Below, one piece after another: positions 4,716-55,916 of a stretch of DNA of 64,000 nucleotides. Position numbers and translations under genes: made by a program. Numbering within the stretch: the stretch's first letter is position 1; every line of letters starts with the position of its first letter. The notes under the pieces were generated by a model, which made no database searches, was not told where the DNA came from, and saw only the letters and a list, made by a program, of their open reading frames with translations. The DNA lies in NCBI RefSeq assembly GCF_003664005.1, contig NZ_RCCJ01000001.1:1674001-1738000 (forward strand). The letters are read 5' to 3'. The stretch comes from Hydrogenivirga caldilitoris (GTDB lineage Bacteria; Aquificota; Aquificia; Aquificales; Aquificaceae).

Positions 4716-5696
4716 ATGAAGAGAGAGAGTATTCCCCTCCTTGACTTCTTAAAGGAAGCTAAGGGAAAGATACTTATACTTACCCATGAGAATCCAGACG
4801 GTGATGCCCTTGGTAGCGCCATGGCTCTTTATCTTTTCCTGAAGAAGGTTGGCAAAGATGTTACGGTAGGGTGCAAAGATAAGATACCCCATTTCCTTGA
4901 CTTTATACCTCATTCGGAGGAGGTCATCAGCATCCCCGATGGAAAGTTCTACGACATAGGGATAATAGTTGATTCAGCGGGATTTTACAGAGCGGGAACA
5001 GAGGTTAAGGTTGCTACCAGGATAAGGATAGACCATCATGTTGGGGGTGAGTTCTACGGTAGATACGATTACATAGATCCAAAGTCACCAGCTACTGCCG
5101 CACTTATATATGAACTTATTTCAGCTTGGGATGAAACTAAGATAGACGCCGATATAGCAACCTGCATATATGCAGGTCTTGCAACAGATACAGGCTTCTT
5201 TAAGTATTCAAATACCAATGAATATACCTTTGAGCTTGCAAAAAAACTGGTCCATTATGGGGCTGACCCGAACTACGTTTACAGAATGTTTTCAGAGAGA
5301 GAATCTATAAACAAGATGAAGCTTATAGCAAAGGTTTTGGAGACACTCACTCTTTATGAAGATGGTCTGGTTGCAGGGATAACTATATTTGACAGGTTCT
5401 TCAGGGAAACAGGAACGGAGTATTCTGACAGTGAAGGGCTTGTGAACTACCCCCGCTCCATAGAAGGTGTTGAAGTAGCTTTTGCCCTTATAGAGAAACC
5501 TGATGAGGGGATATGGAAGGTATCACTGAGAAGTAAAGTGAATGCGGATGTATCAAAGATAGCGGAAAGACTCGGAGGTGGCGGTCACAAGTACGCTTCC
5601 GGTGCTAAGATAAAGGCAAACTCCCATAAGGAAGCTCTTGATAAGCTGCTCTCAGAAATAAGAAAGCAGTTGGAGCTTCAGAAGATACATCACTGA
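4716..5696 (+). CDS. nrnA: DHH-family phosphoesterase (NrnA-like nanoRNase / pAp phosphatase)
   Basis: 326 aa with the bipartite DHH/DHHA1 layout. THENPDGDALGSA (from residue 23) binds the metal pair, the DHH triad is near residue 106 (RIDHHVGGE), and the C-terminal DHHA1 domain carries GGGGHKYASGAK. NrnA enzymes degrade 2-5-nucleotide RNAs and dephosphorylate pAp; they replace Orn in many bacteria. A good Shine-Dalgarno (GAGGAGGATTGAG) precedes the ATG. Its stop overlaps the nfo start by one base (TGATG), so the two are probably translationally coupled. The exact substrate is an inference. Confidence 0.9.
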   Translation: MKRESIPLLDFLKEAKGKILILTHENPDGDALGSAMALYLFLKKVGKDVTVGCKDKIPHFLDFIPHSEEVISIPDGKFYDIGIIVDSAGFYRAGTEVKVATRIRIDHHVGGEFYGRYDYIDPKSPATAALIYELISAWDETKIDADIATCIYAGLATDTGFFKYSNTNEYTFELAKKLVHYGADPNYVYRMFSERESINKMKLIAKVLETLTLYEDGLVAGITIFDRFFRETGTEYSDSEGLVNYPRSIEGVEVAFALIEKPDEGIWKVSLRSKVNADVSKIAERLGGGGHKYASGAKIKANSHKEALDKLLSEIRKQLELQKIHH

Positions 5697-53723: not shown

Positions 53724-53752
53724 ATTATAGGTTAAAAGGGCACAAATGCAAA
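53724..53752 (-). promoter_or_regulatory. Promoter of the PAS-GGDEF gene
   Basis: Minus strand TTTGCA (53747-53752), 17-base spacer, TATAAT (53724-53729). The -35 lies in the end of the DsrE-like gene. Confidence 0.55.
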
Positions 53753-54169
53753 TCCTGAGTTCTGAAGCTCTATCAGAGTTATCCAGCTGTTAGGAACCGT
53801 TTCTATAAAGTCTGGAACACCGCTTATCTTTCCCCTGTCCATAGCTATCCTGCAGGCTTTCACCTCAACGTTGTAGAGCTCCTTTAGTGTTCTTAGCTGG
53901 CTCTGAATGAACTCTACTTTCCTTGCCTTCTTAGGAGGGAACCTCTTTAAGTCCTTCTCCACTATCGGTATACAGTGGGAGTGTATAGTGACGACGAACT
54001 TGTAATCCCTTCCTTCCCTTACAAGACTCTCTGCAGTCTTCTTTATAAGAGAAAGCCTCAGGCTGACCCAGTCAAGGTCTCCTACTGCACAGTCAAAGAC
54101 AGCTTTAAGCTCTTTATCCTGGGCGAAAGAAAAAGAAACAACAGCAAAGAGAATCAACAGTAACTTCAT
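53732..54169 (-). CDS. Secreted DsrE-fold protein
   Basis: 145 aa. Signal peptide MKLLLILFAVVSFSFAQD, then a DsrE-like pattern: VFDCAVGDLDWVSLRLSLIKKT, FVVTIHSHCIPIV, VEVKACRIAMDRGKI and ITLIELQNSGFAFVPF. Three cysteines in the mature part could carry or sense sulfur outside the cytoplasm. The start overlaps the upstream stop (ATGA). Third gene of the palindrome-controlled operon. Confidence 0.82.
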   Translation of the reverse strand: MKLLLILFAVVSFSFAQDKELKAVFDCAVGDLDWVSLRLSLIKKTAESLVREGRDYKFVVTIHSHCIPIVEKDLKRFPPKKARKVEFIQSQLRTLKELYNVEVKACRIAMDRGKISGVPDFIETVPNSWITLIELQNSGFAFVPF

Positions 54170-54357
54170 AGTTCGCCACCTTCAAGGTTTACTAAACGAC
54201 ACGAGCCCTTCTTAAAGGCATCACAGAGCTCATCCCCTGGCTGTGCGCCTATGGAGCATTCCATACCCTTTAATACCTCCCACTCTTCTTCCGGATACAT
54301 TTCGGGCGGGAGGTTCTTGACATAATAAACACAGCTCTTACAGATTTCTCTGCCCAT
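54166..54357 (-). CDS. Small cysteine-rich protein in the DsrE operon
   Basis: 63 aa with CKSC near the N-terminus plus three more cysteines (MECSIG, ELCDAF, GSCRL). The pattern suggests a small metal or redox domain; the family is not recognised. It is coupled to both neighbours (TGATG overlap upstream and ATGA overlap downstream). Confidence 0.8.
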   Translation of the reverse strand: MGREICKSCVYYVKNLPPEMYPEEEWEVLKGMECSIGAQPGDELCDAFKKGSCRLVNLEGGEL

Positions 54358-54776
54358 CAGTACTGCATAAATATAGTCGCAGGTTCAGCCTTTTCCATGA
54401 GAAACCATGTAGCCCCTACTATTCCATCCGCTTCAGAGATAAGGTCTTTCTCCTCAACACCGAATATCTGAGCTGCGAGGCTACAGGCGTATAGATGGAC
54501 CTTCCCGGTTTCTTTGAGTTTCTTAAAAATCTCGTGAAGGTCTGCCGGCAGTCCTGCCGCTTTCACTCTCTCTTCTATCATATCTACCGGTGTTCCAGTA
54601 TGATCCGCCGAGGGCTTTACCGCTTCAACGCCCTGCTTGGAAAGGAGCCTTACAGCCCAGTTCACAAAGAGGATGTTCACCTCATCGTAGTCTGCTGCAC
54701 CCAAGTAGGCAAAAGCCAGCGGGGTTAAAACCAAGTCATAGGCGTCTTGCCTCACAACCATAGCCATGGTCTTCAT
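54357..54776 (-). CDS. Cytosolic DsrE-family protein
   Basis: 139 aa. MAMVVRQDAYDLVLTPLAFAYLGA, VNILFVNWAVRLL, KVHLYACSLAAQIFGV and EADGIVGATWFLME match DsrE/DsrE2 proteins of sulfur relay; Cys in YACSLAAQ is the likely persulfide carrier. The ATG follows GGAGGTGGAAG. First gene of the operon with a palindrome in its promoter. Confidence 0.87.
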   Translation of the reverse strand: MKTMAMVVRQDAYDLVLTPLAFAYLGAADYDEVNILFVNWAVRLLSKQGVEAVKPSADHTGTPVDMIEERVKAAGLPADLHEIFKKLKETGKVHLYACSLAAQIFGVEEKDLISEADGIVGATWFLMEKAEPATIFMQY

Positions 54777-54793
54777 CTTCCACCTCCTTATTT

Positions 54794-54822
54794 AGGATAA
54801 TACCGAACGTTCGGTATGTCAA
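54794..54822 (-). promoter_or_regulatory. DsrE operon promoter with embedded palindromic operator
   Basis: Minus strand TTGACA (54817-54822) and TATCCT (54794-54799) are exactly 17 bases apart, and 16 of those 17 bases are the perfect palindrome TACCGAACGTTCGGTA (54801-54816). A TetR-family gene lies immediately upstream on the same strand, so it is the obvious candidate repressor. Binding would block RNA polymerase directly. Confidence 0.8.
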
Positions 54823-54838
54823 GAACTTTTTTAAAAAC

Positions 54839-55414
54839 TTAAGGAGAGAGGGACCTCCATACGCATTCCCCAAGGCTATCAGCGTATGAGGTTAACGGTT
54901 CCTTTATGACACCGTCCCACTTAAGTTGCATGAGACGAACAGGAGCAGCGGTTATACATACGGCGCAGAGCTCTGGGTCAATAGCTCGTATTCTCCCCTT
55001 ATCTATCTCTTCTCTACAGAATTTCTTGAGAAGGTCCATCGGCTCTGCAGAACAAACAGGAACATCTAAAATTTCCCTGTGTTTGACGTAGAGAGCATAC
55101 TCCATCGTGTACCTGTCCTCCTCCGCAAGTATAAGAAGCTCTCTTATCACACCTTTTATCTTCTCTCTTGCTCCTTCCCCTTCACGGAGAGCCTTTTCAA
55201 GTCTTTCTTTTATCTTTTCTACAGTTTCCCTGTATATCTCACCCGCTATCTCCTCCTTGCTTTCAAAGTGATGGTATAAAGCTCCTGTACTGACTCCGGC
55301 TTCTTTTGCTATGTCTCTCATGCTGGTGTTGAAGTACCCTTTCTCTACGAAGAGTTTCTTTGCTGTGAGGATTATGCTTCTCTTTGTCTGTTCCCCTGAC
55401 TGTTTTTTACTCAC
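54839..55414 (-). CDS. TetR-family transcriptional regulator
   Basis: 191 aa if started at the GTG 55414, overlapping the end of the Dsb-like gene; an ATG at 55432 is an alternative. The helix-turn-helix is IILTAKKLFVEKGYFNTSMRDIAKEAGVSTGALYHHFESKEEI (residues ~13-55). The ligand domain has four cysteines (VPVCSAE, KKFCREE, ELCAVC), which may make it redox- or sulfur-responsive. It precedes the DsrE operon and its putative operator. Confidence 0.9.
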   Translation of the reverse strand: MSKKQSGEQTKRSIILTAKKLFVEKGYFNTSMRDIAKEAGVSTGALYHHFESKEEIAGEIYRETVEKIKERLEKALREGEGAREKIKGVIRELLILAEEDRYTMEYALYVKHREILDVPVCSAEPMDLLKKFCREEIDKGRIRAIDPELCAVCITAAPVRLMQLKWDGVIKEPLTSYADSLGECVWRSLSP

Positions 55415-55916
55415 CCTTGATCCCAAGCTCATTGAGGAGGTTCTGTGAAAAGCCTTCAATTATTTTGTTCTTCTCAGGAATTATATTGTAGGGAACACCG
55501 TTTACTCCCAGTCTGTCAACAACCTTAAGATGTTCCTCAATCAGGTCGCATTTACTTACATTCAGAGCCTTACCGTCCAGTTTTCCCAACATAACCTCAT
55601 CAATAGCTTTGAGTTTGTCTTCTGAGCAGGCGATGTAATAAGACTTTTTTAGATTCTCCTCCCCCCAGGTCTTGAAGGGGAACACAAATATGTATACCTT
55701 CAATTTGTCCAGATGTTTGCGAAGCTCTTTCCACTCGGCTCTACAGTGGGGACAGTCTGGGTTTATAACTGCTATGAGCTCCTTATCCCCTTTCCCTACA
55801 ACTATTGCCTTATCTTTTGGTATGCTGCTTATCTGCTCTTTGATCAACAGGTCGTAAAGACTGCCACCAAAAACGAGGGAGAACAAGCCTATTAGCAGTA
55901 TGAGTGCTCTTTGCAT
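55407..55916 (-). CDS. Periplasmic thioredoxin-fold protein (DsbC/DsbG-like)
   Basis: 169 aa with signal peptide (MQRALILLIGLFSLVFGG). Active site NPDCPHCRAEW and cis-Pro loop GVNGVPYNII are those of Dsb proteins with CPHC. It lacks the long N-terminal dimerisation domain of DsbC. Likely thiol-disulfide exchange in the periplasm. Overlaps ispH by 25 bases and the TetR start by eight. Confidence 0.87.
   Translation of the reverse strand: MQRALILLIGLFSLVFGGSLYDLLIKEQISSIPKDKAIVVGKGDKELIAVINPDCPHCRAEWKELRKHLDKLKVYIFVFPFKTWGEENLKKSYYIACSEDKLKAIDEVMLGKLDGKALNVSKCDLIEEHLKVVDRLGVNGVPYNIIPEKNKIIEGFSQNLLNELGIKGE

Follow-up and report, generated by a model that had tools for sequence, protein, structure and literature searches.

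A TetR-family gene and a dsrE-like gene follow one another in the window (the whole 64,000-nucleotide stretch of DNA analysed here), and the promoter spacer between them is filled by a perfect palindrome. The question raised by this locus is whether the palindrome is the operator through which the adjacent TetR protein controls dsrE and, if so, how far such a switch would reach and what signal would release it. The features, from upstream to downstream, are as follows:

55407..55916, minus strand: thioredoxin-like/DsbC-like secreted protein, upstream of tetR (Pfam Thioredoxin_2, 4.8e-7)
54839..55414, minus strand: tetR-family regulator, 191 aa, GTG start, 8-bp overlap with the upstream gene (Pfam TetR_N, 5.9e-19; structure model)
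54817..54822, minus strand: -35 hexamer TTGACA, invariant across six aligned promoters
54800..54817, no strand: proposed TetR operator, 18-bp perfect palindrome ATACCGAACGTTCGGTAT, conserved as ATACCGANCGNTCGGTAT in 5/5 dsrE orthologs
54794..54799, minus strand: -10 hexamer TATCCT, 17 bp from the -35; weakest element, variable in relatives
54783..54787, minus strand: GGAGG ribosome-binding site of dsrE, from sequence, conserved in relatives
54357..54776, minus strand: dsrE-like gene, 139 aa, invariant Cys98 (YACSLA) (Pfam DrsE_2, 2.4e-10; nearest solved relative PDB 2qs7)
54166..54357, minus strand: 63-aa protein with five cysteines and no family match, its start codon overlapping the dsrE stop
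53732..54169, minus strand: DsrE-family protein, 145 aa, likely signal peptide, third operon gene in the window's genus (Pfam DsrE, 3.5e-6)

The palindrome in the dsrE promoter

The minus strand from 54822 to 54794 reads TTGACA-TACCGAACGTTCGGTAT-TATCCT with a spacer of exactly 17 bp, in agreement with the sequence-only reading, which had placed the two hexamers at this distance. That reading had also described a perfect palindrome of 16 bp in the spacer; the palindrome is there, but it measures 18 bp, its outermost (first) base being the last A of TTGACA. A further copy of the dyad does not precede tetR itself. The -10 hexamer is the least certain part of the promoter, with TATCCT matching at 4 of 6 positions and relatives displaying TATTTT or TACAAT at 17 bp or TATTAT at 16 bp.

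A first-order Markov model of the same composition predicts 0.25 perfect 18-bp palindromes per 64 kb vs. 3 observed in the window, so that palindrome length by itself, while mildly unusual, is weak evidence. The two others (1079-1096 and 5159-5176) are both intragenic, in ORFs that by eye are RsmE-like and DHH-type phosphoesterase-like, respectively, and are probably due to chance. That the palindrome before dsrE is likewise a chance occurrence, as its two companions might suggest, or that it acts as a hairpin in RNA (in a terminator or 5' leader), as a possible 7-bp stem with a 4-base loop might suggest, is extremely improbable. The hairpin/terminator reading was rejected on the following grounds: 1) no T-run follows the palindrome; 2) the fold is no better than that of shuffles (z -0.67); 3) the palindrome is positioned upstream of the expected transcript start; 4) conservation across five genomes extends to 16 of its bases, among them the central two, which in RNA would be part of the loop, and this argues against chance as well. 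Indeed, placement within the promoter spacer in the 62 bp that separate the tetR stop from the dsrE start, together with conservation in 5/5 dsrE promoters, is well beyond chance.

Conservation in the Aquificota

Among 136 Aquificota genomes, the window's own included, close DsrE orthologs (74-94% identity) were present in five, namely the window genome, G005, G016, G065 and G066. In all five, a TetR ortholog lies immediately upstream of dsrE, an exact ATACCGANCGNTCGGTAT follows TTGACA, and the promoter takes the form TTGACATACCGANCGNTCGGTAT amid surrounding DNA that has mostly diverged; the intergenic alignment displays mainly the operator block and the ribosome-binding site as common to relatives. 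The site was thus missing from none of the five genomes that retain tetR-dsrE, an absence that the sequence-only reading had named as counting against it. All 16 fixed bases were matched exactly in 5/5 genomes with this dsrE vs. 2/107 without it (Fisher p = 1.6e-7, kinship uncorrected), and in both of the latter the match adjoins another TetR gene. Being related to each other, the five dsrE genomes do not represent five independent events. The near-centre pair of the site is variable, with A..T in the window and G065, G..C in G005 and G016, and A..A in G066. In G005 and G016, both halves have been altered from AACGTT to AGCGCT with symmetry kept; in G066 the centre is AACGAT and symmetry is lost at the variable pair.

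TetR orthologs were found in six genomes of the window's genus (46-71% identity) and in a second genus (89% in G066, 54% in G065). The contig of G012 ends inside the operator, at TTGACATACCGAATG just past tetR, with the left half intact, and that of G006 ends at tetR. In G010, tetR (66-68% identical, with the same recognition helix) is kept, dsrE is lost and a degenerate site, TAACGGGTGTTCGGTT, precedes the secreted DsrE-like gene that directly follows tetR (L037 5478-6610), indicating that the full site is not retained wherever the TetR is. Both this dsrE and the operator site are absent from G015, whose TetR is the most distant (46%). A GTDB contig scan with a DsrE profile returned only two already-known MAG copies and, at such sensitivity, showed no pairing of DsrE with TetR beyond the Aquificaceae. 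In the named collection, two members of the window's genus are MAGs listed as Aquificaceae bacterium.

Apparent joint transfer of tetR, operator and dsrE

In this neighbourhood, the window and G066, which we take to be Hydrogenobacter thermophilus TK-6, share 87% DNA identity only over 54350-55421, from tetR through dsrE, a unit of ~1.07 kb that has a different neighbourhood in G066. At the protein level, TetR and DsrE are 89% and 94% identical between the two vs. 71% for both SerS and IspH; in the same-genus comparison with G016, TetR is ~68% and SerS 84% identical. Judged by these identities, regulator, operator and target have evidently been passed together between the window's genus and that of G066, which fits the expectation for a self-contained switch. 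Joint retention and joint movement, taken together, suggest that the locus is very likely a simple one-target genetic switch in a subset of hot-spring Aquificaceae. In G066 (L088 9201-14841), the tetR-dsrE unit adjoins apparent CRISPR repeats (frames in which LLGAYKGL recurs) and genes resembling cas1/cas2/cas4, with a DUF542/RIC-like gene oriented towards dsrE; all of these were named by eye.

The linkage also bears on which protein would bind the site. As the genome has six other TetR-like matches, the adjacent TetR is the likely but not the sole possible binder, and ACCG...CGGT half-sites serve several TetR proteins. Nevertheless, tetR, site and dsrE occur together in five genomes and appear to have moved to G066 as one 1.07-kb unit, and all operator-bearing TetR orthologs have an identical or almost identical recognition helix, STGA[LV]YHHF; we therefore consider it very unlikely that the site is the operator of another TetR paralog or of some other DNA-binding protein.

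The TetR protein and its recognition helix

The regulator scores 68 bits with TetR_N (PF00440) vs. a cut-off of 24, and its AlphaFold model (pLDDT 85) has an all-helical TetR fold with a C-terminal ligand domain, the best PDB matches being TetR proteins with TM about 0.6-0.8. A palindromic site overlapping the target promoter, a trait of this family, is found in the -35/-10 spacer of 5/5 genomes. The GTG start is most likely correct given that the G066 ortholog has ATG at the same codon. As tetR overlaps the preceding thioredoxin-like gene, it is probably made from the purN-ispH side; in G065, the same thioredoxin-like gene sits downstream of dsrE.

Efflux-linked TetR proteins of the Aquificaceae have SKG[AG]FYF[HY]F as recognition helix. 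The gamma-butyrolactone receptor CprB contacts bases through K43, G44, Y47 and F48 (PMC4150764), and its K43 matches the position of the Thr here. In view of the helix difference and of this Lys contact, a specificity rule pairing Thr with an NCGN centre and Lys with a CCGG-type centre, resting on two groups of related proteins, appears sensible.

Proposed switch

We surmise that ATACCGAACGTTCGGTAT is very probably the operator of the TetR-family repressor encoded just upstream, blocking the dsrE promoter. A TetR dimer (or a pair of dimers) would bind the palindrome and cover the DNA between -35 and -10, keeping RNA polymerase from starting dsrE and the following genes, until a signal bound by the C-terminal domain would make TetR let go, allowing the DsrE sulfur-carrier-like protein to be made. 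Of the earlier claim that the adjacent TetR represses the dsrE operon, the link between TetR and operator is upheld by co-occurrence, co-transfer and conservation in 5/5 genomes, while repression itself, along with binding and release, is what we infer from the promoter layout, the conservation through symmetrical centre changes, the strict tetR/operator/dsrE link, the joint transfer and the lack of other genomic sites, all read from the sequence.

Some TetR proteins activate; in addition, dsrE has the same orientation as tetR, which ends in only a weak terminator-like stem, making read-through into dsrE possible. The TetR might accordingly be an activator, or a roadblock to read-through from tetR, instead of a classical initiation repressor. 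However, the dyad fills the region between -35 and -10, from which RNA polymerase is excluded once a protein is bound there, and the -35 is of consensus type in all five promoters, rendering either role highly improbable.

Reach of the proposed switch

The earlier proposal that the operator could be used to find a regulon did not hold within the window genome, where no further sites with <=2 mismatches were found; two 3-mismatch sites in the genome read as coding sequence. With no second genomic site, the regulator is best seen as local, serving one promoter. Order-wide, matches with <=2 mismatches numbered 23 vs. 21 for a reversed-pattern control, and since they were no commoner than in the control, exact matches alone were used. 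In a literature search, ACCGAACGTTCGGT was not found in print, nor was any described TetR-DsrE pair.

The dsrE product belongs to the DsrE/DsrF-like superfamily (PF13686/PF02635, 41 bits with a cut-off of 25 and 28 bits with a cut-off of 22.7), with Cys98 invariant, and falls below the cut-off for the DsrE2 sulfur carrier (NCBIfam NF047629, 29.6 vs. 210 bits). The operon (dsrE, the 63-aa Cys-rich protein and the secreted DsrE-like protein) is found in three genomes, but in two the conserved pair is tetR-dsrE only. The 63-aa protein, translationally coupled to dsrE, keeps all five cysteines at 62-64% identity in G005 and G016. A separate sHdr-tusA-dsrE-like locus is present near 446-454 kb without this operator (genes named by eye), from which we gather that the DsrE studied here is probably not the core DsrE but an accessory paralog that can be switched. 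A gene for a regulator-like protein (L102 16535-17098; DeoR-type HTH by eye, Cys-rich C-terminal part) is divergent from the sHdr-like cluster at its tusA end and is a candidate regulator of that cluster.

The signal

The sequence-only reading had attributed thiol, sulfur or metal sensing to several cysteines of the TetR, which in the window are Cys121, 133, 150, 153 and 184. Of these, Cys121, in the motif P-[VI]-C-S-x-E-P, is the only one that all operator-bearing orthologs share; the TetR of G065 has a single cysteine in the alignment and lacks the other four, though operator and dsrE are kept there, leaving one cysteine of the several proposed and making sensing through several cysteines a weak proposal. 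The cysteine pair of sHdrR/SoxR-like sensors was not found, Cys121 alone being conserved, and neither a metal site nor pairing of cysteines within the protein is thus likely as a common mechanism. A single reactive cysteine as sensor is possible. We tentatively suggest that the signal may be a reactive sulfur or thiol species at or near Cys121, a reading to which we give a modest chance; a small organic ligand, e.g. acyl-CoA-like, is about as likely, given that the fold comparison returned, besides mostly uncharacterised TetR proteins, several fatty-acyl-CoA regulators (FadR type), making an organic ligand equally possible. More speculative, and rather unlikely as a whole, is the notion that this TetR, with its single conserved Cys121, represents a novel type of sensor for sulfur species and switches a DsrE sulfur carrier on its own, a Lys-to-Thr helix difference having shifted recognition from the common efflux-type operator ACCGACCGGTCGGT to ACCGANCGNTCGGT. 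A literature search found no sulfane-sulfur-sensing TetR, and a broader one gave nothing clearly relevant.

Comparison with known systems

The link between TetR, operator and dsrE is well supported, and the proposed switch, although ordinary in kind, is clean: regulator, operator and target form a compact and transferable unit from thermophiles, and the operator is sharply defined. It should be useful for asking whether TetR proteins sense sulfur species and how the centre of ACCG..CGGT operators is specified by residues of the recognition helix.

On the side of the target, the closest solved relative by sequence (4.8e-11) is DsrE2B of S. solfataricus (SSO1126, PDB 2qs7), with M. cuprina Mcup_0682 as another DsrE2B, and as in these proteins there is one conserved cysteine in the matching region; unlike them, this dsrE lies outside the sHdr cluster. 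PDB 2qs7 is identified as S. solfataricus DsrE2B in the same study in which none of the sulfur compounds tried reacted with the Metallosphaera counterpart (PMC4175335). With respect to regulation, sHdrR and SoxR are ArsR-type sulfane-sulfur repressors of sulfur oxidation genes (PMC10451225, PMC12423496); they too are repressors in sulfur oxidisers, and their examined promoter regions include one before a dsrE-type gene, but they carry a conserved cysteine pair in contrast to the TetR family and one fully conserved cysteine here. The best NCBIfam match of the DNA-binding domain is to the gamma-butyrolactone receptors ScbR/ArpA/CprB (NF041196, 2.5e-19), but at 70.2 vs. a 150-bit cut-off, over residues 13-90 only, and with Thr at the K43 position.

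The operator itself has close parallels. PaaR, a TetR protein of Burkholderia cenocepacia, is held to act via ACCGACCGGTCGGT between -10 and -35 (PMC2770484). The two systems share a TetR-type repressor, a near-perfect repeat between -10 and -35 and identical ACCGA/TCGGT half-site ends, but PaaR controls several phenylacetate promoters, with other target genes and a CCGG centre vs. ACGT/GCGC here. In several Aquificaceae, sites of the ACCGACCGGTCGGT type stand in front of TetR-TolC-membrane-fusion or RND pump loci (L090, L091, L092, L093, L094, L095, L097). Both G024 and G017 have two places with such sites, which appear to be an efflux-operator motif. The pump-linked TetR proteins, e.g. that beside ATACCGACCGGTCGGTAT in G019 (presumably Aquifex aeolicus), are of the same family and share the outer operator bases ATACCGA..TCGGTAT, yet they are about 30-35% identical to the TetR described here and differ from it in their SKG-type helix, CCGG-type centre and efflux neighbours.
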